A DNA stretch of 32,734 nucleotides. Source: Maribacter sp. Its GTDB lineage: Bacteria; Bacteroidota; Bacteroidia; Flavobacteriales; Flavobacteriaceae. The stretch spans positions 1-32,734 of the forward strand of contig JAAETN010000341.1 of NCBI GenBank assembly GCA_024228355.1, given 5' to 3'. Below the pieces are notes generated by a model. It did not search any database, was not told the origin of the DNA, and saw only the letters and a program-made list of their open reading frames with translations. Positions 11,662 through 26,024 of the stretch are shown piece after piece. Positions within the stretch are counted from its first letter, which is position 1; every line of letters starts with the position of its first letter. The translations under genes were made by a program, and so were the position numbers.

Positions 11662-12030
11662 TTATCTGATAATTTTAAAAGTAGCATTCAATTTTAATGC
11701 CAGAGTACCATTGAACATAGTGGTATTCTTTACCTTGATTACATCTTCCATTTGGTTAATGACCAAATTAAATCGAAGGGCATCGTTTATCTCAGGATTA
11801 ATGACAGCCATGAACTTAATGTTGGATGATATGCTCAAAAACAATTCTTTCCCTACTGCTTGTTCAGTTAGTTCTTTGATTATCTGAATCATGCAAACTC
11901 CCGGCATTACAGGGTTACCAGGAAAATGACCCTTAAAAATTTCGTGCTCCTTATGTAATTTAATGTTAGCAACAAAAACATCCTCATTTTGGTCTAAATC
12001 GAGTAAAGTATATAGTCCTTTTATTAGCAT
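11662..12030 (-). CDS. FabZ-like hotdog protein, catalytic His kept, Glu replaced by Gln
   Basis: A 122-residue hotdog-fold protein related to 3-hydroxyacyl-ACP dehydratases. GHFPGNPVMPGVCMIQ (34-49) is the FabZ active-site helix: His35 corresponds to the catalytic His, but 14 residues on, where FabZ has Glu, this protein has Gln49. In FabZ these two residues come from different subunits across the dimer interface, so a homodimer here should lack the acid. Two other hotdog proteins in the cluster have the reverse pattern. Likely a dehydratase subunit in polyene extension, or a non-catalytic partner. It sits 5 bp after the beta-barrel gene. At 122 residues it is slightly shorter than FabZ, lacking part of the N-terminal helix. 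Confidence 0.82.
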   Translation of the reverse strand: MLIKGLYTLLDLDQNEDVFVANIKLHKEHEIFKGHFPGNPVMPGVCMIQIIKELTEQAVGKELFLSISSNIKFMAVINPEINDALRFNLVINQMEDVIKVKNTTMFNGTLALKLNATFKIIR

Positions 12031-12035
12031 ATCCT

Positions 12036-12629
12036 TTATAATTGAAATTTGTATGCGATACCAATTTGAAACACATTGTTCAATGTTGTACTGTCATAAT
12101 AGTCATCAGAAAAGAAAAATTCATCGAACAAATCAATATTTAATAGACCTTGTTTATATCTAACTTCAAGAATTAAACCAAAATCAAATTCAAAGCCAAT
12201 ACCCATTAAAATCGAAAGATCAAATGGGGTCACTTCAGAATCGTTGTTTTCATTTATAAGATTGATAAAGTTGTTGTCAAAATCAAAATCAAGACTTGGT
12301 CCTAGAATAAGATGAAGTCCCTGATTTGGCACAATAAAAAATTTGCTTGGTACTCCTATTGATATATAGTCTATGATAAGATCGTCCGAATTCAAGGAAG
12401 TGGATTTACCTCCTTGTCGGGAATAACTGATCTCTGGTTGTAGGGCATAAAAATCTGTAATCCGAATATCTGCAAATACAGCGGCATTAGGGCCTAATTT
12501 TCCATCAAGGCTCGTGTTGGATATGTTAGAATGATTGAATCCCAAACGCAGCCCTGGCCGAACTTTTACCTGTGCGAATAGATGGCCTGAAAACAGAATC
12601 AATGCAAGGAAAATAAATAGTCTTTTCAT
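12036..12629 (-). CDS. PorT-family outer-membrane beta-barrel protein
   Basis: A 197-residue exported protein with signal peptide MKRLFIFLALILFSGHLFAQ. The mature part opens VKVRPGLRLGFNHSNIS and continues in alternating polar/hydrophobic strands (ALQPEISYSRQGG, FGLILEVRYKQGL), ending FQIGIAYKFQL with the terminal aromatic-x-aromatic/Leu signature of outer-membrane barrels. This matches the small porin-family (PorT-like, OMP_b-brl_2) barrels common in Bacteroidota. In this cluster it may help insert or display the pigment in the outer membrane; its exact role is unknown. It is part of an envelope gene group (LolA-like, lipoprotein, barrel). Confidence 0.82.
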   Translation of the reverse strand: MKRLFIFLALILFSGHLFAQVKVRPGLRLGFNHSNISNTSLDGKLGPNAAVFADIRITDFYALQPEISYSRQGGKSTSLNSDDLIIDYISIGVPSKFFIVPNQGLHLILGPSLDFDFDNNFINLINENNDSEVTPFDLSILMGIGFEFDFGLILEVRYKQGLLNIDLFDEFFFSDDYYDSTTLNNVFQIGIAYKFQL

Positions 12630-12638
12630 CTGGTGTTC

Positions 12639-13244
12639 TTAAATAGCGGTCAAATTAATCTTAAGCGGAATCTTATTATGTAAAATCTGAATTTGCCCTA
12701 CAATGTTATCATTTATTTCTGAGAAAATAAATTCTACCTTTTCTTTTCCGCCTTTAACCTTTATAATCTTATTTAGTTGCTGATCTTTATTAAAGTAATA
12801 GTGTGTTTCTTCGTCTAGTCTTGTTTCCCAAATGGTATCCCTTTTTTTGGTATATCCCATAAAAGCAGTCGATTTCTCCCGTACCAAGACTTTCAAATCC
12901 TTTTTAAGGATTTTGATCAGTATTCTTTTGTTCATCTCTGGGATAATGCGGTTTGTCCTAAAACTTTGGCGGTTCAAAGTGAAATCAAAGATCTTGTTTC
13001 CCATTTCTGTGGTTAATACTATCCTATGATGGCCTGGGCCTAATTTTTTCACGATGAAGATGCCTCCAAACGATTTGTCAAATGCTTCGATTTTGGCCTT
13101 GTATATATAGTCCTTGGTCTTATCGGAAAAGTAGGGATTATTAACGTATTCAATTGATTTTCCCAATTCCTGAAAATCATTCTTCCTGGGATATGAACCA
13201 CATGAAACCAGTAAGAAAGTTAAACTAATGAGCAAATACCGCAT
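12639..13244 (-). CDS. Outer-membrane lipoprotein, possible LolB/DUF3261-like partner
   Basis: A 201-residue lipoprotein: the signal peptide MRYLLISLTFLLVSCG ends in a lipobox with Cys15. The mature chain is rich in beta strands (GGIFIVKKLGPGHHRIVLTT, KIFDFTLNRQSF, GQIQILHNKIPLKINLT), consistent with the half-barrel shape of LolA/LolB. It follows the LolA-like gene and overlaps it by 20 bp. Proteobacterial aryl polyene clusters carry a LolA gene with a small DUF3261 lipoprotein, and this gene occupies the equivalent place, so a LolB-like acceptor role is inferred. No catalytic motif is visible and sequence similarity to LolB is not obvious by eye. Confidence 0.72.
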   Translation of the reverse strand: MRYLLISLTFLLVSCGSYPRKNDFQELGKSIEYVNNPYFSDKTKDYIYKAKIEAFDKSFGGIFIVKKLGPGHHRIVLTTEMGNKIFDFTLNRQSFRTNRIIPEMNKRILIKILKKDLKVLVREKSTAFMGYTKKRDTIWETRLDEETHYYFNKDQQLNKIIKVKGGKEKVEFIFSEINDNIVGQIQILHNKIPLKINLTAI

Positions 13245-13851
13245 CTGAAAGGGGTTGATTCAAAGTTCTATTGCGAAAAATAATCTGAGTGTAATCCCCG
13301 GTAGGTTCGATGATTTTAACTTCTTGTACACTAGCTTTCGACCTATCAAAAAACAATTCAAACGATGCAATGTAATCAGCAATTTTTTGGTCTTTGGGTA
13401 CAAAAACCACTTTATTGAGCGACTCTGTTTTTAAATAGGTCGTAACAAAATCAACATCATTGAACATATCACCTTTTACACTGGCAATTATAAGTTCGTT
13501 GAGTTTTTTGAACAATTTGCTATTTCCTAGATCTACATTGCTTTTGGAGCCATCATCGTTGATGTAAAGCTTATCCTTATTAAAAACAACACTATAGTTA
13601 TAGGGCTTCGTATAATGCCATTTTACCATATCAGGAGCCTTGAAGGCCATATTCCCTGAAGTTTCAATAAGGTTGGATAAAAAGTCTAAATATTTATATT
13701 GGGTAAAATCACTCTGTATGGTTTTTGTTGAAAGTGAAGTAGCACTAACCTTGTTCTTAAATGCCGTAATTTCCGAAGTGGTCATTGCTTTTTCCTGCCC
13801 ATGTAGTGCAAAAAAAACGAATACTGATACTATGACAAAAAGATTACGCAT
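13225..13851 (-). CDS. LolA-like periplasmic carrier protein
   Basis: From the ATG at 13851 the protein is 208 residues, with signal peptide MRNLFVIVSVFVFFALHGQ. The mature part shows the LolA pattern: TIQSDFTQYKYLDFL, SGNMAFKAPDMVKWHYTKPY (a cognate of the LolA strand with F/L-W-x-x-x-x-P-Y), LYINDDGS, and a C-terminal strand EPTGDYTQIIFRNRTLNQPL. LolA carries lipoproteins across the periplasm. Cluster-linked copies in aryl polyene and flexirubin loci are thought to carry the hydrophobic pigment or its lipid carrier. The frame stays open further upstream, but those extra residues lie inside the deacetylase gene and would bury the signal peptide. An ATG two codons earlier (13857) is also possible. 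It overlaps the deacetylase gene by 8 bp. Confidence 0.83.
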   Translation of the reverse strand: MRNLFVIVSVFVFFALHGQEKAMTTSEITAFKNKVSATSLSTKTIQSDFTQYKYLDFLSNLIETSGNMAFKAPDMVKWHYTKPYNYSVVFNKDKLYINDDGSKSNVDLGNSKLFKKLNELIIASVKGDMFNDVDFVTTYLKTESLNKVVFVPKDQKIADYIASFELFFDRSKASVQEVKIIEPTGDYTQIIFRNRTLNQPLSDAVFAH

Positions 13852-14620
13852 AGGCATCAAACTTAAACAATTGATCAACAGTAACCGATTGTAAATTGTT
13901 TGTTTGCAAAAACAACAATAACTGTTCCAAAACAGCGATAGTTTTGACACTGGTATCATGGAGAAGAATTATATCTCCCTTGGAAATGTTTTTTGTTATT
14001 CTTTTTAAAACGGATGCTTCAGAACGCTTAGTAGTGTCCAAAGAGCGAATGCTCCACCCGATAGTTTGCATTCCTGTGACTTTTACGGCTCTTTTGATAT
14101 TTGGATTGGTTACTCCAAAAGCGGGGCGGTAGAGATTCATTTTTCTTTTGGTGATTTTATTTGCCACTGCGTTCGTTTGCTGTAATTCTTCAATTACCTG
14201 ATCTGTACTTAAAAACCCAAAATTATTGTTATGAGAGAACGTATGGTTACCTATGGTATGCCCTTGGGCGATAATTTCTTCAATCAAATTTGGATTTTTT
14301 TCAATGTTCTGGCCAATACAGAAAAAAGTGGCTTTGGCATGATACTTTGACAAAAGTCGAAGGGCTTTTGGTGTAAATTCTGGATGTGGACCATCATCAA
14401 AGGTAATAGCTACCTCATTATTTTTTATTTCTGGATTGGAATGAAGGGAATATAAATGATAATTCCACCTCATATGGAAAGAGCCAATAATGGTTAAAAC
14501 CAACCAAATCAATGGAGGCGAAAGATATAACCACCATGGTATGCTGAAAAAATAATCTATCCATAAAAAATCAAAAAGAGCAGCAATTGCTAAGATGGAT
14601 ATGGTGTTAAATCTCAACAT
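13844..14620 (-). CDS. NodB-type polysaccharide deacetylase, membrane-anchored
   Basis: A 258-residue protein. Two hydrophobic helices (about 5-28 and 30-47) anchor it, followed by a NodB domain: AITFDDGPHPEF (71-82; Asp75/Asp76), NHTFSH (125-130; metal ligands His126 and His130), RPAFGVTNP (the third motif, usually RPPxG) and DIILLHDT near the end with the last catalytic His. Family members remove N-acetyl groups from GlcNAc polymers or lipid-linked sugars. The metal site looks intact. Its presence with a GT2 gene in a pigment cluster suggests a sugar- or acyl-bearing intermediate, or hydrolysis of another amide or ester; substrate unknown. It overlaps the chain-length-factor gene by 7 bp. 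Confidence 0.86.
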   Translation of the reverse strand: MLRFNTISILAIAALFDFLWIDYFFSIPWWLYLSPPLIWLVLTIIGSFHMRWNYHLYSLHSNPEIKNNEVAITFDDGPHPEFTPKALRLLSKYHAKATFFCIGQNIEKNPNLIEEIIAQGHTIGNHTFSHNNNFGFLSTDQVIEELQQTNAVANKITKRKMNLYRPAFGVTNPNIKRAVKVTGMQTIGWSIRSLDTTKRSEASVLKRITKNISKGDIILLHDTSVKTIAVLEQLLLFLQTNNLQSVTVDQLFKFDAYA

Positions 14621-15675
14621 TTTTGAAGCAAAGTGAAGCTATGGTTCTCTCCTCTATACTGATTATACAATAAAATTTTGTTAAGTGCTGACGGTTTTAT
14701 ATCGTTTAATTTTACGATGTCGGGAATCTTTTGGGTGTTCAATATTTTGGCTCCCAGCCACATCCCAAAAGAAGATGCGGTATTAAACTCACCACAAAGG
14801 TGCTTGTAATACACTTGTTGGGTATCCTTAAAAAGGCCTTTTCTTAACGGATTGTAAAAGGTATCATATTCTATGTCACCATTGTTTCCCAATATCAAAG
14901 CATCAACGTCTGTGTTACAAAGTCCATTTTCTTTCAAAAAAGCTCTTGCGGTCTCTTGTAAGTTCTCCTTGGGCAATGTATTATAAATGCTTACCGCTAA
15001 TAATTCTGCATAACCATTATCCAGCTTTTCGTTGGAAAGGACAAAAAAGTTAGCACCTTCACCAAAAACGGCTCCAGTTGTTTTAGAGTCTAAAAGGGAG
15101 GCAGTTTTCACCTTTTCTTCTTTAATATGATTAATTAGCCGGTGAACCTTAATGGTATGCGCGCCAGATTCGTCAATACCGCCAACTAAAATGTGGGTAG
15201 CCTCTTTGTTTTCCAATTGAAGTTTTGCATCCAATAGGGCAGATTCAAAAGATACGCTTGAGTGTACGTATGTGAAATTATATCCCTTGCATTGAAGGCT
15301 AAGCGCAATTTGCCCTCCCACAGTGTTGTGTGTTGATTGTATAAATGAGGTAGGAGTTAGGTATTGCTCATCATTGTCCAAAATTGTGCTGACAAATTTC
15401 TCCGAGTCTTGTACACAACCCATTCCTGTTCCAGTAATTATAGCGTCAACATTTTCCAATCCTGCTTCGTTCAATGCTATTTTGGAGGCCGTAACACCCA
15501 TTTTTATTCCTTTCGCCATTCTCCGTGCTGCAACCGGTGGAATAAAGTCCCTGTAATTAGGGTCAATGACCGTAATTACATTGTCATTGTAGGTTGTGAT
15601 CTCATCTAAAAACTCTGAGTTGTCAAAAGTTTTTTGTGATGAAATTGAGCCAACGCTATTTATAAAAACGGCCAT
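14614..15675 (-). CDS. Chain-length-factor-like ketosynthase subunit without active-site Cys
   Basis: A 353-residue thiolase-fold protein of the beta-ketoacyl synthase family. Where FabF-type enzymes have the nucleophile in T-A-C-(A/S)-S, this protein reads YVHSSVSFESA, with Ser140 in place of Cys. The first catalytic His region reads ILGNNGDIEYD rather than NAHGT, and the second reads KHLCGEFNTASSFG, with Glu after Gly where the His is expected. It is therefore predicted to be non-condensing, like type II chain-length factors and ApeC of aryl polyene systems. It follows the active ketosynthase gene by 3 bp, so it is very probably the heterodimer partner of that protein, setting polyene length. 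The N-terminus is also shorter than in FabF. Confidence 0.83.
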   Translation of the reverse strand: MAVFINSVGSISSQKTFDNSEFLDEITTYNDNVITVIDPNYRDFIPPVAARRMAKGIKMGVTASKIALNEAGLENVDAIITGTGMGCVQDSEKFVSTILDNDEQYLTPTSFIQSTHNTVGGQIALSLQCKGYNFTYVHSSVSFESALLDAKLQLENKEATHILVGGIDESGAHTIKVHRLINHIKEEKVKTASLLDSKTTGAVFGEGANFFVLSNEKLDNGYAELLAVSIYNTLPKENLQETARAFLKENGLCNTDVDALILGNNGDIEYDTFYNPLRKGLFKDTQQVYYKHLCGEFNTASSFGMWLGAKILNTQKIPDIVKLNDIKPSALNKILLYNQYRGENHSFTLLQKC

Positions 15676-15678
15676 TAT

Positions 15679-16881
15679 CTATTGTTCTTTAGAAAAAATA
15701 AGCGTGGAACAATTTCCACCAAAACCCAAAGAATTGGAAAGAACAGTATGCAATTCTTTATCCTTTAGTTTCGTCTGTGGTTTAATTTGGAACTCTTTCA
15801 TTTGGGTTGTGAAATTCAGATTGGGGTATATTATATTGTTCTGGAGGGCAAGAATTGAATAAACGGCTTCAATACCGCCTGCAGCGGCCAAGGTATGTCC
15901 TGTATAAGCCTTAGTAGAACTAAAATCAGGAACGGCCTCTCCAAAGACGCGAATAATCGCCCTTCCTTCAGATAGGTCATTATTCCCAGTTGCGGTTCCG
16001 TGGGCATTGATATAGTCAATATCCTTGCACTCCATTCCAGCTATGTTCAAAGCTTTCTGCATAGATAGAGCGGCACCATCACCATTTTCTGATGATGCGG
16101 TCTGGTGATGCGCATCATTGGCATTCCCATAACCTTTGAGGTAGGCCAATACCATTTTGTTTTCGGCCGCTACTAGAGCATCGGATTCTAAAACAAGAAA
16201 GGCGGCCCCCTCACCTAAATTCAGTCCTTTTCTGTTTTCATCGAACGGGGTACTATAGGTATCCGATAAGATCATCAAGGTTTTGAAACCATTGATAGTG
16301 AATTTTGACAAACAGTCTGACCCACCTACAATTACCCTATCCAACTGACCGGATTTTATAAGCCTTGCCCCGAACATAATAGCATTTGCAGCTGAGGAAC
16401 AGGCGGTACTAATAGTCGTGACCAAACTTTTTTCTAGACCCAATTGTTCTGCAATCTTTTGGGCAGAATCACCAGCATGGTGTCCAGCTATATATTTTCG
16501 ATGTGATTCATTTTCGAGGTAGTCATAATAATACTTTTCCGTCCTATCCATACCTCCAACACTAGTGGAAGATATTAAACCAGTTTTATAGGCATTTATT
16601 TTCGTGATATTGGCATTTGCAACCGCTTGTTTTGCAGCATATACACCCAATAAAGCAGTTCTGGAGTAATTATTGTCCGGGGGTAATCCCAATAAAACTT
16701 CCAATTCCTTATTTGTATAAACTATTTCACCCACCATAATGGCATCTTTATGCATGGTGTCTATCTTAGAAATTCTTGAGATTCCTTTATTACCTTGAAT
16801 AAGTGAGGCATGGTTTTCTTGAACATTGTTACCAATGGAAGAAATTATACCCATACCAGTAATGGCGATGCCTTTGCTCAT
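15679..16881 (-). CDS. Beta-ketoacyl-ACP synthase (FabF/ApeO-like), polyene elongation
   Basis: A 400-residue ketosynthase with a complete triad: Cys161 in ISTACSSAANAI, His294 in NAHGTATG and His329 in KAYTGHTLAAAG, with Lys324 also present. It carries out decarboxylative condensation of malonyl-ACP with the growing aryl polyenyl-ACP. It is preceded by an ACP gene (66-bp gap) and followed at once by the chain-length-factor-like gene, giving an ACP-KS-CLF block like the ApeE/ApeO/ApeC set. The ATG at 16881 begins MSKGIAITGMGIISS, the standard KS N-terminus. A 14-bp palindrome lies in its leader. Confidence 0.92.
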   Translation of the reverse strand: MSKGIAITGMGIISSIGNNVQENHASLIQGNKGISRISKIDTMHKDAIMVGEIVYTNKELEVLLGLPPDNNYSRTALLGVYAAKQAVANANITKINAYKTGLISSTSVGGMDRTEKYYYDYLENESHRKYIAGHHAGDSAQKIAEQLGLEKSLVTTISTACSSAANAIMFGARLIKSGQLDRVIVGGSDCLSKFTINGFKTLMILSDTYSTPFDENRKGLNLGEGAAFLVLESDALVAAENKMVLAYLKGYGNANDAHHQTASSENGDGAALSMQKALNIAGMECKDIDYINAHGTATGNNDLSEGRAIIRVFGEAVPDFSSTKAYTGHTLAAAGGIEAVYSILALQNNIIYPNLNFTTQMKEFQIKPQTKLKDKELHTVLSNSLGFGGNCSTLIFSKEQ

Positions 16882-16900
16882 TTTGTACTGTTGCTTACGT

Positions 16901-16914
16901 TACTTTTAAAAGTA
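16901..16914. promoter_or_regulatory. 14-bp perfect palindrome between ACP and KS genes
   Basis: TACTTTTAAAAGTA is a perfect palindrome, 20 bases upstream of the KS start codon in a 66-bp gap. It is too AT-rich to be a strong terminator. It could be an operator or a mild RNA element tuning KS relative to ACP expression. No -7 consensus sits next to it. Confidence 0.25.
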
Positions 16915-16947
16915 CAAATAGTCTGGATAATTTAAATGGATAAAAGG

Positions 16948-17205
16948 TTATTTGGTTTTATGCTCGGCAATGTAGTTTGCCATGGTCTCAATGGATTCGA
17001 ATACTTTTTTACCCTCTTTTGGGTCTGATAGCTTAATTCCGTAATCTTTATCTAACATTACGATAAGCTCTAAAGCATCAATGGAATCCAATCCCAAGCC
17101 GTCTCCAAAAAGGGAATCGGTATCGGCAATTTCATCTATGGCGACATCCTCTAGGTTCAGTTGCTCAATGATCTTCTCTTTTAATTCTAGTTTTAAATCT
17201 CCCAT
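16948..17205 (-). CDS. Acyl carrier protein (polyene module)
   Basis: An 85-residue ACP. The 4'-phosphopantetheine site is Ser41 in GLGLDSIDALEL, with acidic helix II (ELIVMLDKDYGIKL) following. It would carry the starter and the extending aryl polyene between ligase, ketosynthase pair, reductase and dehydratases. It lies between the half-ketosynthase gene, which it overlaps by 41 bp, and the KS/CLF pair, so it probably serves that pair. A second, more acidic ACP is encoded at 27854-28096. The ATG at 17205 lies within the upstream gene, so translation is likely coupled. Confidence 0.93.
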   Translation of the reverse strand: MGDLKLELKEKIIEQLNLEDVAIDEIADTDSLFGDGLGLDSIDALELIVMLDKDYGIKLSDPKEGKKVFESIETMANYIAEHKTK

Positions 17206-17827
17206 GTGTCTTATATAATCTATTAATCTCTTTAATGCTGTGAATAGTTGCCCCTTCCTTTGCTACAAGATATAAAAAGGCTTCGTATTGGTTATTATCA
17301 AATTCCACCCAACCACAAAGCACCTTCTTTGCCTTATCGGAATGCAATAGGTTGTTGCTATAATCCAATAAATGGCTTGGGTTAAAGTCGTCAAAGATAA
17401 AAAAACTATTCTCGGAATAAAGTTTATGTCTGATACTAATTTCTCCTATACAGATATTGGGCAGGGTATACACAAATACAGCCGGACTTGGAAAGTAATT
17501 TTCTTGATTTTGTATGGATGTTTGGTGCTTTCTGTCTGTATCAAGGCTTGAGGCTCTATTAGACAATACTATGGCGATGTTTTCCTCTTTTTCAGGGAAT
17601 GTCCTTTGATGATTCAATAGCACATCCGCTGCCAAAAAGGCCAGCTTGCTCAACCTATCCATCTTAAAAAACTTAGGGTAATCGATTTCAAAGTTTTTAT
17701 AGGCGGATTTTATAAAGGTCGAAAAAGCAACATTTTTATTTTCGTAGATTTCTGTTCCATTCAAGAAAACACAATTATTTCTTATATGGGAGTAGCTTTG
17801 TATGTATAATTTTTTTTCCAATGGCAA
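17165..17827 (-). CDS. Half-size ketosynthase-like protein (no active-site Cys), TTG start
   Basis: A 220-residue protein matching only the N-terminal half of ketosynthases. KMDRLSKLAFLAADVLL (55-71), IAIVLSNRASSLDTDRK (84-100) and SPAVFVYTLPNICIGEISIR (113-132) correspond to the strand-helix elements before the KS nucleophile. The following stretch FFIFDDFNPSHLLD has no Cys, and the C-terminal half with the catalytic His residues is missing. It probably acts as a scaffold or partner for an ACP or KS. There is no in-frame ATG before residue 56, while conserved-looking sequence starts at residue 5. The likely start is therefore TTG at 17827, directly after the methyltransferase stop (TGATTG), or TTG at 17821. 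Its 3' end overlaps the ACP gene by 41 bp. Confidence 0.68.
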   Translation of the reverse strand: MPLEKKLYIQSYSHIRNNCVFLNGTEIYENKNVAFSTFIKSAYKNFEIDYPKFFKMDRLSKLAFLAADVLLNHQRTFPEKEENIAIVLSNRASSLDTDRKHQTSIQNQENYFPSPAVFVYTLPNICIGEISIRHKLYSENSFFIFDDFNPSHLLDYSNNLLHSDKAKKVLCGWVEFDNNQYEAFLYLVAKEGATIHSIKEINRLYKTHGRFKTRIKREDH

Positions 17828-18874
17828 TCAACTTTTTTTGCAGACCAACAACGTATGGTATTCTCCCACAGCAATATCTTCCTTGATTGTTAATCCGGCT
17901 TTTTCTGCCAAATTGATTATGATCTCTGCTTTATACATTTTACTATTGCCATTGGCAAGTACTGTGAAATATAGAGATGTCGCTTCTAGGATAAACTTGG
18001 CATTATCGAACTTTTGCCTGTCGGTAAAAGTTTCCATAATGAGAAGTTCGGTCTCAAGATCCATCGACTTCACGCAAGTTTTTAGAATTTTTAAGATCTC
18101 GTCTTCTGAAAAGCAATCTAAAAATTGACACATCCATATGGTATTGGCACCTTTGGGAATTTGAGTGTTTTCTGATAGCCAATTGATTTCCTGCCCAGAG
18201 ATCCTGCTTTCCAGACCCACACTTTTTACATTGGAAAGGGCTTTGTTCAATTGTCCTGGCAGATCAAATATTTTCACTTTGACACTATTGTCGTAATTGC
18301 AACAATGTATCGCGAACTTCCCAGTGTTTCCGCCAATATCAAAAAGCACTTTTGGGTTGTTGTTGAACACTATTTTCAAGGCATCGCTAAATATATCGTC
18401 GGAATAATGATGATCGAATTCGAACCACGATTTTTGAATTTCGGGGGTCAGCTGCGACAGACCCTCGTATATGGTATTCCAATTGCCAAATTCAACCAGA
18501 CCTGCTGGTTTACCTGTTTTAATGGATTCATACAAATGAAATAATCCTTTATAGCAAACATCGTTCGTAAAATTAATATTGACGCCCGTTGTCTTATTGT
18601 TGTTTAAAAAATAACCGATTTTGGTCAGCTCATACCACCCTTGGGAATTTTTGCGGACAATATCTGAACTTTCGGCTATTTCCAATAATACCCCAAGACC
18701 ATATTCGCTGATTGACAATCCTTTTGAAATATCTGAAATGGTCACTCCTCCATCAGAATGGTTGTCGAATATAAAATCGAATACACCTAGTTTTCTTAGT
18801 GAGATCGTAGTTTGAAATACAAAAGGGGCAAAAGCAATTTTTTGGGCCTCTTGTAGTGCGTCGATGGCTTTCAT
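17828..18874 (-). CDS. SAM-dependent methyltransferase (O-methyltransferase 2-like)
   Basis: A 348-residue class I methyltransferase. An N-terminal helical region with a winged-helix-like segment (ISDISKGLSISEYGLGVLL, 47-65) is typical of plant-type and antibiotic O-methyltransferases that dimerise through this part. The SAM motif VLFDIGGNTGKFA (176-188) is followed by VKIFDLPGQ, with the acidic residue expected to bind the ribose. Some flexirubins carry a ring methyl group, so methylation of the aryl ring or a phenol fits the context; C- versus O-methylation cannot be decided here. A 66-bp gap with two hairpins separates it from the upstream KS gene. Confidence 0.82.
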   Translation of the reverse strand: MKAIDALQEAQKIAFAPFVFQTTISLRKLGVFDFIFDNHSDGGVTISDISKGLSISEYGLGVLLEIAESSDIVRKNSQGWYELTKIGYFLNNNKTTGVNINFTNDVCYKGLFHLYESIKTGKPAGLVEFGNWNTIYEGLSQLTPEIQKSWFEFDHHYSDDIFSDALKIVFNNNPKVLFDIGGNTGKFAIHCCNYDNSVKVKIFDLPGQLNKALSNVKSVGLESRISGQEINWLSENTQIPKGANTIWMCQFLDCFSEDEILKILKTCVKSMDLETELLIMETFTDRQKFDNAKFILEATSLYFTVLANGNSKMYKAEIIINLAEKAGLTIKEDIAVGEYHTLLVCKKS

Positions 18875-18891
18875 TGTTTTTTTGGCATTAT

Positions 18892-18927
18892 TTCAATTGT
18901 TGAATACGAACCGTAATCTACGGTTTG
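18892..18927. promoter_or_regulatory. Two adjacent hairpins in the KS-methyltransferase gap
   Basis: AACCGTA (18909-18915) pairs with TACGGTT (18919-18925) across a 3-base loop and can be extended by a wobble and a C-G pair. Beside it TTCAA (18892-18896) pairs with TTGAA (18900-18904). Neither is followed by a U tract on the minus strand, so simple termination is unlikely. They could protect or process the mRNA between the two genes. Confidence 0.35.
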
Positions 18928-18940
18928 AACGGCTTCTATC

Positions 18941-20122
18941 TCAATAGTTTGGGACAGTGCCGGGTTTCTTTATTTTCTGTTTTGTTTTTTTTAAAACTAT
19001 CGCGGTATTGCAACCCCCGAAACCCGATGCTGTTTTTAGAAAGATATCAAGCTGTTTTTTCGTGGTTTTTTCAATGACATTGATAGGTTTTGAAACACCG
19101 AGTTCCTGAAATCCTTTTGAGGCAAATAAGGTGTTTTGGTGTAGGGAATGCATCCCAACAATGGTTTCTAACAAACCGGAGGCCCCCAAAGAATGACCTA
19201 AATACCCTTTAAGGCTATTTATTGGAATTTTGGTCATACCCAATCTATTAAAAGCAATGGCCTCCATTTCATCGTTGAACGAAGTTGCGGTACCATGTGC
19301 CGATATATAATTGATTTGGTCGGCTTTCAGGCGGGCTTGTATTAGGGCAGACCGTACGCTTCTGAATAGTCCTTCCCCTGTGCGGGAAGGTCCCGAAATA
19401 TGATTGGCGTCGTTGCAGGAAGCTTCTCCCAAAACCGTAACAGCTTCCTCTGTTAAATAATTTTCGTTTATGGTGACCAATATGCTTGCTGCGACTTCAC
19501 CAATATTAATGCCCGATCGTGTTTTACAAAAGGGTCTGCATGGTTCTTTGCTCAAAGCTTGAAAAGAATTGAATCCGGAAAGAACAAATTTCGTTAACAG
19601 ATCTCCGCTTACCACAAAAACATGATCAAATCTTCCCTGTTCGATGAACCGTTTGGCCACGGCAACCGCCAAAACCCCAGAAACACATGCATTAGACAAG
19701 ACTATAGGTTCCGTTTTAAACCCTAAAAAAACTTTTATGACGCTTCCCATTTCACTTAAATATGCTCTTTTCTTTGGAAAAGGACTATTATCTTCAAGGA
19801 CATCAATATTCCCTTTGGTCGTTGAGATGATCAGGCCGACTCTATCGGTAAGATTTATTTGGGAGGCTTTGATTACTTTTTGCAATGAGACTAACATCAT
19901 TTTTTCAAGACGGGTGTAATTGCCCTTAGGATATAGCGCTTCAAATTCATTTTGAAGTTTTTCATAATCGACCATAGAAGCATAGAAGGGTTCAGGTAAA
20001 AGCTGGTGATCATTGATTAATCGAATTCCAGAAACTTCATTTCTAATATTTTGAACGGCAATCTCACTATCAAAACCGAAAGAAGATACAATGTTATTGT
20101 ATGATAGGTAGACCTTACTCAT
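18941..20122 (-). CDS. Beta-ketoacyl-ACP synthase (FabF-like), second copy
   Basis: A 393-residue ketosynthase with an intact triad: Cys146 in LSNACVSGVLAV, His276 in ISAHGTAT and His310 in LKGYLGHSLGASG (Lys305 nearby). The N-terminus is divergent (MSKVYLSYNNIVSSFGF) and about 15-20 residues shorter than classical FabF; the tail is basic (KKTKQKIKKPGTVPNY). It may prime the chain by condensing the activated aryl starter, or elongate a different substrate from the KS/CLF pair; the role is not decidable from sequence alone. It overlaps the thioesterase gene by 8 bp (20115-20122). Confidence 0.88.
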   Translation of the reverse strand: MSKVYLSYNNIVSSFGFDSEIAVQNIRNEVSGIRLINDHQLLPEPFYASMVDYEKLQNEFEALYPKGNYTRLEKMMLVSLQKVIKASQINLTDRVGLIISTTKGNIDVLEDNSPFPKKRAYLSEMGSVIKVFLGFKTEPIVLSNACVSGVLAVAVAKRFIEQGRFDHVFVVSGDLLTKFVLSGFNSFQALSKEPCRPFCKTRSGINIGEVAASILVTINENYLTEEAVTVLGEASCNDANHISGPSRTGEGLFRSVRSALIQARLKADQINYISAHGTATSFNDEMEAIAFNRLGMTKIPINSLKGYLGHSLGASGLLETIVGMHSLHQNTLFASKGFQELGVSKPINVIEKTTKKQLDIFLKTASGFGGCNTAIVLKKTKQKIKKPGTVPNY

Positions 20123-20564
20123 TTATTAAACCTACTTTTTTTTTCCAATCCATAAAAAATTGGGGAATCGTCAAGGAAAGTTCACCACCTAGCTCAAGAA
20201 AAACCTGAACGGTTTCTCCCTTACAGACCAATTCACCTTTTGGGTTAAAGATTTCATACTCAAAAATCATTTTCGCAGCTGGAGAATCTTTATAAATGGT
20301 CTTTATAGTAGCTACATCCCCGTACCGTAAGGGAAGTTTGTGTTCACTACTTGATTTTACTATTGGGCTCGAGAAATTATGTTTTTTTTGGTCTAAATAT
20401 GACACGCCATGATGACGGCCAAAAGCCTCCCGACCATCCTCGAAATATTGGATATAATTGCCATGCCACACGATTCCAAGTGGATCTGTTTCAACAAAGC
20501 GCACACGTATCTCACTGGTATGGCTAATCTCTTTGTGGTCTTTATACCGCATTTTTCCTTTCAT
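20115..20564 (-). CDS. YbgC/4HBT-type hotdog acyl thioesterase
   Basis: About 149 residues from the ATG at 20564. RVRFVETDPLGIVWHGNYIQYFEDG is the 4-hydroxybenzoyl-CoA thioesterase signature, with the catalytic Asp in TDPLGIVWHGNY. The rest is standard single-hotdog (LPLRYGDVATIKTIY, VCKGETVQVFLE). It could release stalled or mis-primed chains from ACP, or supply free acids; proteobacterial aryl polyene clusters also carry such an enzyme. The frame can be extended to a TTG at 20573, and a second ATG at 20552 is preceded by AAAGGAAA; either ATG is preferred to TTG. It overlaps the end of the ABC permease gene. Confidence 0.85.
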   Translation of the reverse strand: MKGKMRYKDHKEISHTSEIRVRFVETDPLGIVWHGNYIQYFEDGREAFGRHHGVSYLDQKKHNFSSPIVKSSSEHKLPLRYGDVATIKTIYKDSPAAKMIFEYEIFNPKGELVCKGETVQVFLELGGELSLTIPQFFMDWKKKVGLINE

Positions 20565-21810
20565 AATATACAATTGAGATTATGGTAGTTAGGGCGAAAA
20601 ATAAAAATAAAAGGGTAATTTCCAGAACAATTTCCCTAAATCCGCCATTTCGTAAAAATACGTCATAGAAGGCATTTAGGCCCCAATTCATTGGCGAAAT
20701 GTTAGAAAGTAACTGCATAAACTTCGGCATTACAAATACAGGGACCCAAACCCCTCCCAAAGCAGCTAAAATAACCACCAAAGTGGCTCCTAAAGGAGCA
20801 GATTGTTCCTGGGTCTTAGCTATAGTGCCCAATAATAATCCTAATCCTATGGCTGCCAGGCCAGCAAAGAATGCGACAACAAAGAGCATTGGAAGTTTAT
20901 TGGAAATCTCCAGTTTTGGAAGACCAAGAATAGGTAGTAAGTACACGCCGACGAAAAGCATAAGAGCAAATTGAACAATGCAAACACATAAATAAACCAA
21001 GGTCTTGCCACCTAAAACAGTGGAGTATGAAATGGGATTTGTACGCAAACGAACGAAAGTGCCTTGATTTTTTTCCTTCACCATATTTATGGATAGCGGA
21101 ATATTGATGAAGAAGATTGCAAACAATGTCCATGCAGGAACATTGTGCTGTGTAGAGTTGGGCAAAATGTCTTCACTGGTATTATTTTGATTAACCTCTT
21201 TAAATGTGATAAAACTTTCGGTATCAAAAATAGCCTCTGATTCATCTTCGGTCAATTGCTGTTGAAACGCCTCATAAATAGATTGGATTTCAATTTGTGA
21301 AATCATTTTATCAATTCCGTTCTTTACCGAACTCTTAAAGGACATTTGAGTAGCTGGATCAAAATAAAGTCTTACTTCTTTTTGGGCAATCACATTTTTT
21401 AATACTGGATCAATTGCTTCATCTAAACCGAATTTTGATAAAATCCCCTCAACATTTTCGTTTACTTTCTTTTCCAGGTCATTCGAGAGGTTTGTGGGGA
21501 TTACAATAGCTAATTGATATTTACCTTTAAAAACCAATTCTTTTGCACCATTTTCTGTTTCTTCATTTATAATTTCGAATGAGTTTGTTTTGGTTAAACC
21601 ATTTCGTATACTTTTTGAAACCTTGCCTTTATCATTATCTACCAAAAGCACTGGGATTTTGGTTTCCGTTATGGTTTTGAAAGTATTATCCTGGATCAAT
21701 GTAATGGTGATGAGAAGTAGTAGGGGCATAATAAAGAGAATGGCGAGTCCACCAAAATCCCGTATGAGGAGCAGGAATTCTTTATATGTAGATGCCAATA
21801 GTTTATACAT
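20542..21810 (-). CDS. ABC-2 type transporter permease
   Basis: A 422-residue permease. One N-terminal membrane helix (FGGLAILFIMPLLLLITITL) is followed by an extracytoplasmic domain of about 200 residues, then five or so helices in the second half (VPAWTLFAIFFINIPLSI, LCVCIVQFALMLFVGVYLL, LFVVAFFAGLAAIGLGLLL, ATLVVILAALGGVWV, EITLLFLFFALTTIISIVYY). This is the YhgE/ABC2_membrane_3 layout of multidrug and lipid exporters. It overlaps the ATPase gene by 8 bp and forms a two-gene exporter with it. It may export the resorcinol, the pigment or a lipid carrier, in addition to the MMPL transporter. Substrate unknown. Confidence 0.88.
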   Translation of the reverse strand: MYKLLASTYKEFLLLIRDFGGLAILFIMPLLLLITITLIQDNTFKTITETKIPVLLVDNDKGKVSKSIRNGLTKTNSFEIINEETENGAKELVFKGKYQLAIVIPTNLSNDLEKKVNENVEGILSKFGLDEAIDPVLKNVIAQKEVRLYFDPATQMSFKSSVKNGIDKMISQIEIQSIYEAFQQQLTEDESEAIFDTESFITFKEVNQNNTSEDILPNSTQHNVPAWTLFAIFFINIPLSINMVKEKNQGTFVRLRTNPISYSTVLGGKTLVYLCVCIVQFALMLFVGVYLLPILGLPKLEISNKLPMLFVVAFFAGLAAIGLGLLLGTIAKTQEQSAPLGATLVVILAALGGVWVPVFVMPKFMQLLSNISPMNWGLNAFYDVFLRNGGFREIVLEITLLFLFFALTTIISIVYYERKNAV

Positions 21811-22546
21811 GGTCTCTGAGTTCTGTTCCTGTTTTGACTAAGAATACTTCCTCTAAGTTAGTGGTATTGGTATTCTGCTCAATAAGCTCTTTTGGCTTGC
21901 CCTTACAAATGAGTTGCCCTCGATCAATAATTGCGACCCTAGTGCAGAAATTTTCTGCTTCGTTCAAATGATGTGAAGTATAAATTATGGTTGTCCCAAT
22001 TTCATTGAGCTGTTTCAGTCGTTTAATAATTGCATTTTTGGATTGCACATCAACACCCACGGTTGGTTCATCTAGAAATAAAACTTTGGGCTCATGTAAA
22101 ATACTCGCAATAAGATTAATTCTTCGCTTCATACCCCCTGAAAAACTTTCTATTTTTTTATTGGCGAAATCCGACAAGCCTAAATTCTCCATGTGCTCAT
22201 CAATATTCTCTTTTAAGCGAGCTCCTTTAAGACCATAGGTGCTTCCAAAATAACGCAGATTTTCAAAAGCAGTCAAAGTATGGTATAGGGCATATTCCTG
22301 GGGTACTATTCCAATGAGTTTTTTAAGTTGGTTTTTATGTTCTTTGTAATTAAGCCCGTTAATGGTAAAAGATCCCGAAGTTGGCTTGATCAAAGAGCTT
22401 AACATAGAAATCAATGTAGTTTTTCCTGCCCCGTTGGGGCCCAATAAACCAAAAATTTCCCCATCATCAATGGCCAAATCCACTTTGGACACTGAATAGA
22501 AATCGGTACCCCTATACTTTTTGGACAATTGATGGAGTTGGATCAT
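21803..22546 (-). CDS. ABC transporter ATP-binding protein
   Basis: A 247-residue ABC ATPase with Walker A GPNGAGKTT (36-44), Q-loop VPQEYALY (81-88), signature SFSGGMKRR (134-142), Walker B VLFLDEPTVGVD (155-166) and the H-loop in IIYTSHHLNEAE. It is closest by eye to the CcmA/DrrA exporter class, which pairs with ABC-2 permeases such as its downstream neighbour. A 48-bp gap with a small hairpin (22558-22572) separates it from the BtrH-like gene, and no promoter consensus is visible there, so it is probably part of the same transcript. Confidence 0.92.
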   Translation of the reverse strand: MIQLHQLSKKYRGTDFYSVSKVDLAIDDGEIFGLLGPNGAGKTTLISMLSSLIKPTSGSFTINGLNYKEHKNQLKKLIGIVPQEYALYHTLTAFENLRYFGSTYGLKGARLKENIDEHMENLGLSDFANKKIESFSGGMKRRINLIASILHEPKVLFLDEPTVGVDVQSKNAIIKRLKQLNEIGTTIIYTSHHLNEAENFCTRVAIIDRGQLICKGKPKELIEQNTNTTNLEEVFLVKTGTELRDHV

Positions 22547-22594
22547 AAGCCCTTGTGTCTTCCATTGGAAGATTTTTTATACTAATTAATAATA

Positions 22595-23590
22595 TTAAAT
22601 AGACTTTTTGAGTGCTTTAAAGAAGGATTCTTCCTTGTTAGCAATGACCAATAATTGGTCCGCCACCTTGTTATATGCATCGGTCTGGTCACTTCTTTTT
22701 TTATAAATACGCGATGCTTCTATTGCAAAATCGCGCCATTGATCACCGATTGCCGTCATTTCTTCGGAGAGTTCGGATAACTTGTCATTCTTCAAAAGTT
22801 GCCCTGCTTCCTGTAAAAATGCAGCGTAAATATATCTAAAACCACCACCGCCTGTGCCGATTTCTTCCTGCATTCGAACAATTTGTCCCAAATAATGGTT
22901 GGCCCTTTTTGGACCCAATTTTTTAGGCCATTTTCGAATGTTTTGAGCTACCCAACGTATGGCTTTTACACCAACAATAGGTAAAGGTGCTGTCATATCC
23001 CTACAGGTTCGTTTAATACCCTTAACAATGGCTTTTTCTAAATTCAGCTTTTCGGGAAAAGCAATAGGGCAGAATATATGCCCTTTAGGAGCGAAAGCCC
23101 CTTTGGCAAAACGGACTTTTTCCAGTTCACTGTCCGATAGGGTGGTCACAGCTTCCATTACGGGATCACTGATCAGATACGTATTATTTTCCTTTCCATA
23201 AACCACCAAATTATGGGCATTGAAATGAAACCGGTATTCCTCTGGGAAATAAGGAAGGTTATAAACCCCTACTTGTAGCCCCACAGGATTGTCCTTTTCA
23301 AGATATTCATCCAATCTAGCCTTAGCTACCTTAAGGTTTTTGAATTTTTCTCTTTTTATTTTTATCCCTACCCTTTTTGCGAAACGATTGAATATAAGCC
23401 CTGGCATGACCCTATAGGTAAACACCGGAGCATGGTTTACTTTTAAAAAAGGCAAGTAACTGAACAATAGGCCAGATCCAATACCAAAGACCATTGGTTC
23501 GCTCACTTCAAAACCATTGTGCCTCATGAGGTTGGATACGACCCCGTTTTCACAATGCGCAGATTGTTTATGTGTAAATTTGATTTCCAT
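22595..23590 (-). CDS. BtrH-type papain-fold acyltransferase, candidate ester-forming enzyme
   Basis: A 331-residue protein whose N-terminal half fits the BtrH_N family. HKQSAHCENGVVSNLMRHNG places a candidate nucleophile at Cys13; FNAHNLVVYG gives His126 and YLISDPVMEAV gives Asp142, a plausible Cys-His-Asp triad. The C-terminal half (DUF4872-like, helical) contains EIGTGGGGFRYIYAAFLQEA. BtrH in butirosin biosynthesis transfers an acyl group from an acyl carrier protein to a small-molecule acceptor. By analogy this enzyme could take the aryl polyene acid from its ACP and esterify the dialkylresorcinol. That activity is inference; the family match rests on motif recognition. Gene spacing to the small upstream gene is 3 bp. 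Confidence 0.78.
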   Translation of the reverse strand: MEIKFTHKQSAHCENGVVSNLMRHNGFEVSEPMVFGIGSGLLFSYLPFLKVNHAPVFTYRVMPGLIFNRFAKRVGIKIKREKFKNLKVAKARLDEYLEKDNPVGLQVGVYNLPYFPEEYRFHFNAHNLVVYGKENNTYLISDPVMEAVTTLSDSELEKVRFAKGAFAPKGHIFCPIAFPEKLNLEKAIVKGIKRTCRDMTAPLPIVGVKAIRWVAQNIRKWPKKLGPKRANHYLGQIVRMQEEIGTGGGGFRYIYAAFLQEAGQLLKNDKLSELSEEMTAIGDQWRDFAIEASRIYKKRSDQTDAYNKVADQLLVIANKEESFFKALKKSI

Positions 23591-23593
23591 AGA

Positions 23594-23995
23594 TCATTGA
23601 TTCATATCCTGAAGTTGCTTAATGGTAATATCAAACACATCCGCATATTTTTGAAGGGTTTTTGTTTTCAATTTATTAAAGACCGATGGTTTAAAATGGC
23701 GTTTCACCCGCCATTTCCAGAAACCAACATAACTTGACAGGATCGTAAGGTCCATTTTATGAAGCTCCATGTAATATTCCACAGGGCTAGTTTCATTGTT
23801 CAACACCCGTTTTTTAGCATTCTCAACGCGTTCCTCAATTTCCTTGATCGCATTATCCAATGCAATGGTTTTAGGATTCCACCCAGTACTTAACTCGGTT
23901 ATGTAATTACCGTTATCGTCAAGGGCATAGTACATATCCTTTATGTTAGCCGATTCAAGATTGCTCTTATCCTGAGGCACATCACTTTTCTTCAT
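23594..23995 (-). CDS. Small helical protein of unknown function
   Basis: A 133-residue protein that I do not recognise. It has no signal peptide. The middle (IALDNAIKEIEERVENAKKRVLNN) is predicted to be a charged helix or short coiled coil, followed by SPVEYYMELHKMDL and the basic aromatic stretch FWKWRVKRHFKP, then a helical end (KYADVFDITIKQLQDMNQ). It lies 2 bp after the hotdog gene and 3 bp before the BtrH-like gene, so it is tightly co-translated with both. A small adaptor for the ester-forming or dehydratase step is possible, but nothing in the sequence shows it. Confidence 0.65.
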   Translation of the reverse strand: MKKSDVPQDKSNLESANIKDMYYALDDNGNYITELSTGWNPKTIALDNAIKEIEERVENAKKRVLNNETSPVEYYMELHKMDLTILSSYVGFWKWRVKRHFKPSVFNKLKTKTLQKYADVFDITIKQLQDMNQ

Positions 23996-23997
23996 AA

Positions 23998-24453
23998 TCA
24001 GACTTCATGAATTAAGAAATTCATTGTACAATCTACAATTAAATCATCATTTCTAAAAGTTGACCCTGAAATGGTGCAGACACTAAGGTCTTCAGAATCA
24101 TAGCGGGAAATGAGTTTTGCTTTGGTTATTAGAATGTCATTCACTTTGGGCAGTTGATGTATTTCAACTTTTTTTATGGCACTGATATATCCTATAACCT
24201 TATTCCCTTTGCCCTCGAGGTCATCCAGGTCAAAAAAACTCTGTCCTACTATAGCAGAACAGGCTTGAGCTGCATTTTCAATAAGTCCAGTTTCTGTTAG
24301 TACATCGTCGATTATAAAAACGCAATCAGAGGATATACTAAATTCTACAACCACAGAATCGGTATTGATGGTGAGAATCGAATCAACCATTAACATAGGC
24401 TCCCTATGGGGGAGAAATTTTTTAATAGCTATGTTTGTGCGCTCTGGTTTCAC
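23998..24453 (-). CDS. Hotdog dehydratase-like protein (ApeP-like), Glu kept, His absent
   Basis: A 151-residue hotdog protein. LPHREPMLMVDSI (14-26) is the FabZ/FabA-type N-terminal block. ETGLIENAAQACSA (54-67) corresponds to the hot-dog helix with Glu59 at the FabZ catalytic Glu position. The segment before it (SSDCVFIIDDVLT) has no His, where FabZ has GHFPG. It pairs well with its neighbour, which shows the same block plus the shared motif GYI(S/G)AIKKVEI. It probably serves in dehydration of 3-hydroxyacyl-ACP during polyene building, perhaps as a heterodimer subunit. The start is GTG, overlapping the upstream stop as GTGA (24453-24450); no earlier ATG fits, and the conserved N-terminal block begins only 14 residues in. 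Confidence 0.78.
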   Translation of the reverse strand: MKPERTNIAIKKFLPHREPMLMVDSILTINTDSVVVEFSISSDCVFIIDDVLTETGLIENAAQACSAIVGQSFFDLDDLEGKGNKVIGYISAIKKVEIHQLPKVNDILITKAKLISRYDSEDLSVCTISGSTFRNDDLIVDCTMNFLIHEV

Positions 24454-24890
24454 CTATTTGCCAATACTGTTTTCATTTCACTAAGAGCAACTATCTCAGA
24501 ATCACATTCTATTTCCGCTCTTACCAATGTTACGCCCATAATATCGTGTAAAATAATGACCGTGGTGAACAATTCTTGATTTGCACTGGGCAGTGCTTTT
24601 ATTTCGACCTTTTTAATTGCACCGATATAACCTGTAGGAGCTGGTTTATTTTGCAGATAATATTGATATCCTGTATGTAGAGCAATGGTTTGCGCCATAT
24701 TTTCAATGAGCCCCGGCGCATTAAAAATAGAGTTTTTTGTAAACAGATTGCCACTCTTAATACAAAACCCCGACATTATTCTATCTTCTGAATAGTATAT
24801 TAATTTATCGACCATTACAAATGGTGGCTTTTGCGGTATTAGATTCAAAATAAATGACTCGTTGGTTATTGGGTTCTTAAGGAGATTCAT
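24450..24890 (-). CDS. Hotdog dehydratase-like protein, paralogue of its neighbour, His absent
   Basis: A 146-residue hotdog protein. IPQKPPFVMVDKL (18-30) is a variant of the FabZ N-terminal block, with Gln-Lys where HR is usual. APGLIENMAQTIALH (58-72) carries Glu63 at the catalytic Glu position, while residues 41-62 contain no His (FTKN sits where FabZ has FTGH). It shares TGYIGAIKKVEIKALP with the adjacent paralogue, suggesting an old tandem duplication. Its ATG directly follows the DarB stop (TAGATG). Possible roles are dehydratase subunit, thioesterase-like, or scaffold. Placement after DarB suggests use in either the resorcinol or the polyene branch. Confidence 0.76.
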   Translation of the reverse strand: MNLLKNPITNESFILNLIPQKPPFVMVDKLIYYSEDRIMSGFCIKSGNLFTKNSIFNAPGLIENMAQTIALHTGYQYYLQNKPAPTGYIGAIKKVEIKALPSANQELFTTVIILHDIMGVTLVRAEIECDSEIVALSEMKTVLANR

Positions 24891-26024
24891 CTAGCATACA
24901 GTTAAATACGCATATGTATATGAAAATCGTGCACTTTCAGGAACATGTAGTAATATGTTATCCCCTTTTTTCAGTTTGCCTGAAGCTAACAATTCCAATA
25001 ACATAACATAGATTGATGCAGCCCCTATATTACCTATGTCTTCTAGATTCAGGAACCATTTTTCCCAGGGCATCTCAACGCCTTGTTTTTTCATTTCGTC
25101 ATACAATCCTTGTTTAAAATAGTATGATGAAATATGCGGTAAATAATAATCTACATTATCAGGTCCTATATTGTGCTTTGCATAAGCCTGCTTAAGACTA
25201 TCTACCCCTTTCACCAAAATATTATCTCCCAACAATCTGGTATCTTGCTTCATAGCAAATAGTGAGATTTTGCCCCATTCTTTCGATGGGAATTCGCTCC
25301 ACGGTTTAAGATGCCCGTTTACTTGTTTATCTCCGCCGGCATACATGCAGGTTTCCATTTCAAAAGCGTATGAAAAACCTTGAATCCATTCAATCTTTAA
25401 TGGCATCTCGCCTTTAGGTTCCCCCTCCAATAAAATAGCTCCAGCACCATCAGAAAGCATCCAACGTAAAAACTCTTTGTTAAAGGCCAAAATGGGATTG
25501 TCTTCCAATTCCTTGAGATGTTCCATCTCATTTTCAAAAATATCGGATTTCATCCAAGAAGAGGTGCGTTCTGAACCTGTGCAGACTGCGTTTGCCACTT
25601 GTCCTGTTTTGACAGATAGGAAACCATATTTTAATGCATTCATTCCAGAACAGCAAGCACCCGATGGGGAGTTGATTTCCATATTGCCATTTTTCAGAAA
25701 TCCATGAACCATTGATGCATGTGATGGTAAAATCTGGTCTGGACTCGAAGTGCCGCATGACAAAAGTTCTATGTCTTTTGTTGCAAATTCAGAATCGCAT
25801 AAATTCTCAATTGCCTCTGCTGTAAGTTGAGCATTATTATGGGTGACTTGACCATTGTCATCAATGGCATAATACCTGGTTTTTATTTTATTGTTACGAA
25901 GAACTACCCGCCTGGCCTTGGATGCCTTTCCGTTTATCACCCCAAGTTTCGCTTCCATCTGTTCATTGTCCACGGGCTTATTGGGCAGAAATTTAGCTAT
26001 TCTCGTTATGTAAACATCTTTCAT
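24891..26024 (-). CDS. darB: DarB-like ketosynthase III for dialkylresorcinol formation
   Basis: A 377-residue KASIII-type enzyme. The nucleophile is Cys125 in SGACCSGMNALKYG, with His296 in YYLPHISS and Asn331 in DIGNIGAASIYVM completing the Cys-His-Asn triad. The N-terminus MKDVYITRIAKFLPNKPVDN is that of DarB-type proteins. DarB condenses two fatty acyl-derived partners and cyclises them to a cyclohexanedione, which DarA then aromatises to a 2,5-dialkylresorcinol. The gene overlaps darA by one base (TAATG at 26024). Compared with FabH it is about 50 residues longer, as expected for this clade. The assignment is strengthened by adjacency to darA. Confidence 0.87.
   Translation of the reverse strand: MKDVYITRIAKFLPNKPVDNEQMEAKLGVINGKASKARRVVLRNNKIKTRYYAIDDNGQVTHNNAQLTAEAIENLCDSEFATKDIELLSCGTSSPDQILPSHASMVHGFLKNGNMEINSPSGACCSGMNALKYGFLSVKTGQVANAVCTGSERTSSWMKSDIFENEMEHLKELEDNPILAFNKEFLRWMLSDGAGAILLEGEPKGEMPLKIEWIQGFSYAFEMETCMYAGGDKQVNGHLKPWSEFPSKEWGKISLFAMKQDTRLLGDNILVKGVDSLKQAYAKHNIGPDNVDYYLPHISSYYFKQGLYDEMKKQGVEMPWEKWFLNLEDIGNIGAASIYVMLLELLASGKLKKGDNILLHVPESARFSYTYAYLTVC

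Follow-up and report, generated by a model that had tools for sequence, protein, structure and literature searches.

FabZ and FabA are homodimeric dehydratases with both catalytic residues in each chain. In the FabZ mechanism, a His takes the alpha proton and an acid located across the dimer interface handles the hydroxyl group. Flexirubins are a chemotaxonomic marker of Bacteroidota. The stretch of DNA analyzed here (Maribacter sp., assembly GCA_024228355.1, contig JAAETN010000341.1, 32,734 bp; hereafter, the window) is a flexirubin cluster carrying a dialkylresorcinol (DAR) block, and it encodes three small dehydratase-like hotdog proteins, designated P1, P2 and P3. In aryl-polyene clusters, ApeI and ApeP are described as a heterodimeric dehydratase with a single active site (PMC8041823). 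The structure of the ApeI:ApeP heterocomplex is available in the Protein Data Bank (PDB) as 6QSR (X. doucetiae), and the system also occurs as the ApeH-ApeI fusion with ApeP in A. baumannii. HadAB of Mycobacterium is another hotdog heterodimer with one active site, and HadB is common to two partners (in HadAB and HadBC), to which different chain lengths are attributed (PMC4491049). For flexirubins, the dehydration step is given in the accessible part of PMC3992019 only as ‘a dehydratase (FlxF, FlxS)’. The best reading of the data presented below is that P1 would act as the His subunit of a heterodimeric hotdog dehydratase of the ApeI:ApeP type, with P2 and P3 as its Glu subunits; their physical pairing is what we infer from sequence comparison.

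The three ORFs were found exactly where the initial annotation had placed them, all on the minus strand: P1 at 11662–12030 (122 aa), P2 at 23998–24453 (151 aa, GTG start) and P3 at 24450–24890 (146 aa). The initial annotation had assigned, by eye, only the catalytic His of FabZ to P1 and only the Glu to P2 and P3. This was confirmed by alignment with the genome’s own FabZ domain (475 aa ORF, best model LpxC/FabZ), in which the two columns are occupied by His and Glu. P1 carries the GHFPG motif with His35 and has Gln49 at position His+14, that is, in the FabZ Glu column. P2 and P3, which are indeed tandem paralogues, keep Glu59 and Glu63, respectively, each in a LIEN motif; the matching segment of both proteins contains no His, and in both the GHFPG loop is shortened by roughly five residues. 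The fold and the positions of the His and the acid are the same as in FabZ and FabA, but none of the three proteins has His and Glu in one chain, as FabZ does. The assumption that P1 is an ordinary FabZ was rejected because it has no acid and because a FabZ carrying both residues is already encoded in the genome. Modeling of single chains using AlphaFold 2 predicted hotdog folds for P3 (pLDDT 94.8) and P2 (pLDDT 91.1), in which Glu63 and Glu59 are located in the central hotdog helix (residues 58–79 and 54–73, respectively).

The conservation of these residues was evaluated in loci fetched via P3, via DarB or P3 (20 stretches from 14 genomes), or via the ketosynthase (KS) at position 18941 (best 80 of at least 591). 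The proportions given below apply to such P3-, DarB- or KS 18941-bearing clusters, which include at least one duplicate from the same genome (L043 and L157). The loop His of P1 was found in 114 of 114 loci, and the residue at the acid position was Gln in 111, His in two (L038 and L040) and Met in one (L036), with an acid in 0/114. Another seven P1 proteins, of which four come from genomes of the same class but of other orders, all have His and Gln, bringing the totals to 121/121 for the His and 0/121 for an acid. The Glu was kept in 99/99 P2 and 126/126 P3 proteins. These counts refer to related loci and not to independent events (distinct sequences: 112 for P1, 99 for P2 and 125 for P3); the conservation is far beyond chance. 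The His-only/Glu-only pattern was found to be general among the Bacteroidota clusters read.

A catalytic His at another position of P2 and P3 was also looked for. The only conserved one was His16 of P2 (99/99), which belongs to an LPHR motif that is also present in the genome’s own FabZ alongside the catalytic His of the latter. The most frequent His of P3, His72, occurs in 92 of 126 proteins, and in one alignment a His stands in the loop column beside the gap in 3 of 35 P3 proteins (L052, L057 and L063). An alternative catalytic His was rejected, the only candidate being this His16 in its LPHR motif.

For comparison with ApeI and ApeP, a set of eight proteobacterial stretches was used. Both systems include a small His subunit and a Glu subunit without a catalytic His, both belong to type II polyene synthesis, and they are homologous by profile. 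The P1 profile matched ApeI (6qsr_A, 8.2e-7) and 3esi, an ApeI relative, and 24 of 31 P1 homologues matched the ApeI family PF22818 at E 0.01 or better. The best PDB match of the P2 profile was ApeP (6qsr_B, 3.5e-6), which the P3 profile matched as well (5.7e-6). As in ApeI, the catalytic His of all 121 P1 proteins lies in the GHF loop, and a Glu in the central helix without a catalytic His, which all 99 P2 and 126 P3 proteins have, was found in ApeP from 8/8 stretches. The systems differ at the acid position. The 7/7 aligned ApeI proteins have, together with the His, an Asp at His+14, as in chain A of 6QSR, and the eighth (Cedecea), which was missed by the profile scan and read by hand, is the same (8/8). 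This spacing is that of the Asp of FabA. None of the 121 P1 proteins has Asp there, the position being occupied by Gln, His or Met. In ApeI:ApeP, this Asp presumably faces the dead site. Since ApeI keeps the acid and P1 lost it, complementation looks strict in the P1 system, unlike in ApeI, and would thus be stricter in flexirubin clusters. In addition, each of the eight ape stretches contains one ApeP, whereas the flexirubin cluster of the window contains two Glu subunits.

A number of results weigh against a heterodimer of the ApeI:ApeP type. In the matches of the P3 profile, 6qsr_B stood at rank 11, behind ten FabZ sequences. P1 scored 19.2 bits against PF22818 (cut-off 28.5) and P2 scored 17.5 bits against the ApeP family PF22817 (cut-off 27), to which P3 showed no match; at 0.01, PF22817 was matched by 3/26 P2 and 2/35 P3 homologues. 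A Foldseek search with the P3 model gave FabZ as the top match and 6qsr_B as the 50th, and the 50 matches listed for the P2 model were all FabZ, with 6QSR not among them. In Pfam as a whole, P1 matched the FabA-like domain PF07977 (32.8 bits, cut-off 23), P2 gave sub-threshold ApeP-like and FabA matches only, and P3 gave no match.

Since the His-only and Glu-only subunits are complementary, conserved and homologous to ApeI:ApeP, they are best read as forming a mixed dimer in which one site is complete, and P1 quite probably works as such a dimer with at least one of P2 and P3. The heterodimer restoring one site, as proposed in the initial annotation, thus gains support from the residues, their conservation and this homology. 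Most likely, P1:P3 would make the polyene double bonds, and P1:P2 would be an additional heterodimer serving the DAR branch or a chain-length range; taken on its own, the P1:P2 heterodimer has roughly an even chance of being real. According to the proposed mechanism, the ketoreductase FlxB (29334–30077, minus strand; NF053542, 414.4 bits, cut-off 340) would reduce each 3-oxoacyl-acyl carrier protein (ACP) and supply the 3-hydroxyacyl substrate for the dehydratase, and P1:P3 would remove water from every 3-hydroxy intermediate during synthesis of the aryl-polyene chain. His35 of P1 and Glu63 of P3 would together make up one complete FabZ-type site spanning the interface; the alpha proton would be taken by His35 and the hydroxyl handled by Glu63, as in FabZ. 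The second P1:P3 site, consisting of Gln49 of P1 and the loop-deleted partner, would be dead, leaving one site per dimer, and the homodimers would be dead as well. P2 would offer P1 a second acid in a P1:P2 heterodimer tied to the fused DAR block.

It is very unlikely that a P1 homodimer is active with Gln49, His29 or Glu56 substituting for the acid, P2 and P3 then not being dehydratase subunits. P1 does contain a second near-invariant His29 (110/114), six residues ahead of the catalytic His, where Leu is found in 7/7 aligned ApeI proteins, and Glu56 is kept in 107/114 loci. Such a homodimer is opposed by the homology of P1 to ApeI, which has the known partner ApeP, by the co-occurrence of P1 with P3, and by the Glu that P2 and P3 invariably have where FabZ has its acid.

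This co-occurrence was clear in the genomes of the family. Among 149 family genomes, including that of the window, a clear P3 was found in 35 and a clear P1 in 34 of these 35; the remaining genome (G015, locus L061) has a piece of P1 ending at the last base of a contig. A clear P1 without P3 was not found in any of the 149. At the level of fetched loci the picture is less uniform, which counts against the proposed pairing: 14 P3 loci had no P1 within the fetched stretch, and two P1 loci (L162 and L205) had no P3 there, the P3 region being out of view. Seven of the 14 (L039, L042, L048 and L101–L104) come from genomes with a full P1 elsewhere and L061 has the piece mentioned above, while the absence of P1 in L150, L159, L163, L183, L196 and L199 was read from the fetched stretch only. 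In the broken cluster L040 (genome G031), P3, P1 and a glycosyltransferase are direct neighbors, and the 20 kb fetched, of which 2 kb are upstream of P3, showed no further protein of the window cluster.

The distribution of P2 is linked to DarB, the dialkylresorcinol ketosynthase of the DAR block (24891–26024, minus strand; NF053539, 647.3 bits, cut-off 550). P2 was found in 98 of the 101 fetched P3 loci holding DarB (the window left out) and in 0 of the 24 fetched P3 loci without it; most of the latter were judged for DarB by the fetched stretch, and five of them come from genomes with DarB elsewhere. P3 occurs in flexirubin-type clusters both with and without DAR genes. In the fetched loci, the gene order was AT-P3-TE without the DAR genes and AT-DarA-DarB-P3-P2-DarG-DarH-ABC-ABC-TE with them. 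A DarB-like match was found in 33 of 345 phylum genomes, and the 24 same-order genomes with DarB are exactly the 24 that have two neighboring P3/P2 matches. Three more distant genomes have weaker DarB-like matches and no P3-type match at 1e-8. In the tree of 75 rows, P2 formed one clade of 22 rows (support 100/95) next to the P3 rows; ApeP fell outside, and the long-branched P3 row L109 was placed outside both the P2 clade and the P3 rows. The assumption that P2 arose recently in this lineage by duplication of P3 was rejected on the basis of this separate clade, whose depth is unsure given the few columns and long branches.

Exceptions to the link with DarB count against a second, P2-containing heterodimer for the DAR branch. 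Three of the 101 DarB loci lack P2 (L193 and L194 of Aquimarina, and L098), and six genomes of other orders in the same class contain DarB and one P3-type match with no P2 genome-wide, unlike the cluster of the window. A DAR role of P2 is thus not general, and P2 as a general DAR enzyme was rejected, being absent from these six genomes and, at the locus level, from the two Aquimarina DarB loci. The initial annotation had suggested one partner for each branch. The finding of P2 only in DarB-holding loci gives this some support, while its absence from some DarB genomes means that neither branch needs P2 in every genome. In the six genomes, flx and dar form separate operons, similar to the arrangement reported for C. 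pinensis. Judging from the gene order in relatives, P3 is likely FlxF and P1 is likely FlxS of C. pinensis, which the accessible text of PMC3992019 names only as dehydratases. According to the same source, C. pinensis darA and darB gave DAR in a heterologous host (PMC3992019), which also argues against a DAR role of P2; host enzymes may have supplied the substrates in that case. A DAR role fits the tie of P2 to DarB, and a chain-length role fits equally.

P1 might be common to two exchangeable Glu subunits, with P1:P3 serving the aryl polyene and P1:P2, recruited with the DAR block, providing the 2-enoyl thioester that DarB uses as a partner; we put this forward tentatively. One hotdog subunit would then serve two partners, like HadB in HadAB and HadBC, although HadB bears both catalytic residues with the hydratase-2 motif, whereas in the P1–P3 system they are on different chains. 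The hydratase-2 motif was found in 0/121 P1-type, 0/99 P2 and 0/134 P3-type rows, ApeI and ApeP rows included. Alternatively, P1:P3 may be the sole catalytic heterodimer and P2 a structural or regulatory extra with an unused Glu, e.g., the third member of a mixed hexamer, which we consider possible though doubtful. In agreement with this, only P1 and P3 are present in clusters without DarB, in the same-class genomes of other orders and in the two Aquimarina DarB loci, and C. pinensis makes flexirubin with two dehydratases named, FlxF and FlxS (PMC3992019, accessible part). On the other hand, the conservation of the P2 Glu (99/99) and of Ala62 and Gln63 (each 99/99) is more than a bystander requires, and the distances of P2 correlate with those of P1 at least as well as those of P3 do.

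These correlations were obtained by comparing protein distance matrices after removal of the common trend (86 loci, 20 cluster proteins, 190 pairs); no significance test fits them, as the loci share a tree. The partial distance correlation ranks were 2 for P2-P3, 4 for P1-P2 and 9 for P1-P3, and in 46 dereplicated loci they were 3, 5 and 8, respectively. For orientation, KS 15679 and the short KS-like protein 17165, a putative pair of the KS and chain-length factor (CLF) type, ranked 8, and 2 when dereplicated. The thioesterase hotdog protein 20115, which is of similar length, was outside the six best partners of P1, P2 and P3 (control mean without P1–P3). P1 is located about 12 kb from P2 and P3 in the window, so its correlation is not due to adjacency. 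Less favorable to a specific association are the first rank of the neighbors 12639 and LolA 13225 and the third rank of an ABC permease with KS 14614, two pairs with no known link, and the dependence on the control: P1, P2 and P3 are mutually in the top two when they are excluded from the control mean, and high but not top with an even-handed control. The correlations support grouping P1, P2 and P3 together, not exclusively, and favor a common complex, short of proof. They could also be read as pointing to P2:P3 as the working pair, with P1 serving something else, since P2-P3 has the highest correlation of the three and the two genes adjoin. This appears highly improbable: neither protein has a catalytic-type His, so no FabZ-type site is possible, and P1 occurs without P2 in 22 of the 126 P3 loci in view.

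Other genes of the window, those named in this paragraph all being on the minus strand, agree with a flexirubin cluster with DAR genes, and FlxA, FlxB, FlxY, DarB, DarG and DarH are all above the NCBIfam cut-offs. These include the tyrosine ammonia-lyase FlxA (31319–32674; NF053541, 812.3 bits, cut-off 700), the acyl-CoA ligase FlxY (819–2108; NF053551, 714.2 bits, cut-off 520), the flexirubin biosynthesis protein DarG (23594–23995; NF053545, 206.9 bits, cut-off 170) and DarH, a BtrH-related acyltransferase of the DAR block (22595–23590; NF053550, 513.1 bits, cut-off 300). The protein at 26024–26950 is a probable DarA by its position beside DarB in the gene order; it had no NCBIfam match at 1e-10 and no Pfam match at 1e-5.

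A 162 aa protein encoded beside P1 (11173–11661, minus strand) belongs to no family above cut-off. Among loci holding P1 and the glycosyltransferase, it was found in 88/88 with DarB and in 2/21 without it (L162 and L205, with the P3 region out of view), and it adjoins DarA in same-class genomes of other orders (L098, L100 and L106); it is likely a DAR-branch gene. L100 and L108 are separate dar loci of two genomes of the same class (G395 and G442) with their own 14614-, 15679- and 16948-type proteins (KS-like, KS and ACP, respectively), and P1, P2 and P3 matches were not found in the stretches fetched. The KS-like protein at 14614–15675 of the window looks degenerate and, by eye, seems to lack the active-site Cys. 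Another degenerate-looking KS-like protein (17165–17827, 220 aa) has weak FabF matches only. Both are candidate CLF partners, cf. the short CLF of ape clusters. In addition, an MMPL transporter with a fused C-terminal PlsC-type acyltransferase domain is encoded at 6209–9904 (PF03176 and PF01553).

A split dehydratase as such is not new, being known from ApeI:ApeP of aryl-polyene clusters. The idea of a split site in the initial annotation was thus sound, and the obligate split dehydratase that it proposed is of an already known kind. In a search covering titles and the beginnings of abstracts, with most of the subscription literature outside it, no paper was found that describes a split dehydratase for flexirubins or mentions a further Glu subunit. 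Within this scope, two features are new: P1 has lost its acid altogether, and there is a second Glu subunit, which is linked to DarB. The flexirubin dehydratase would thus be a split enzyme stricter than ApeI:ApeP, and one lineage would have acquired another acid subunit along with the DAR block. Should P1 indeed serve two partners, this would be a natural retargeting of one catalytic half by exchanging the other half, in which a swapped acid half would redirect the single split site from one half of the pigment to the other. This would be useful for polyene engineering and for understanding how obligate heterodimers evolve.

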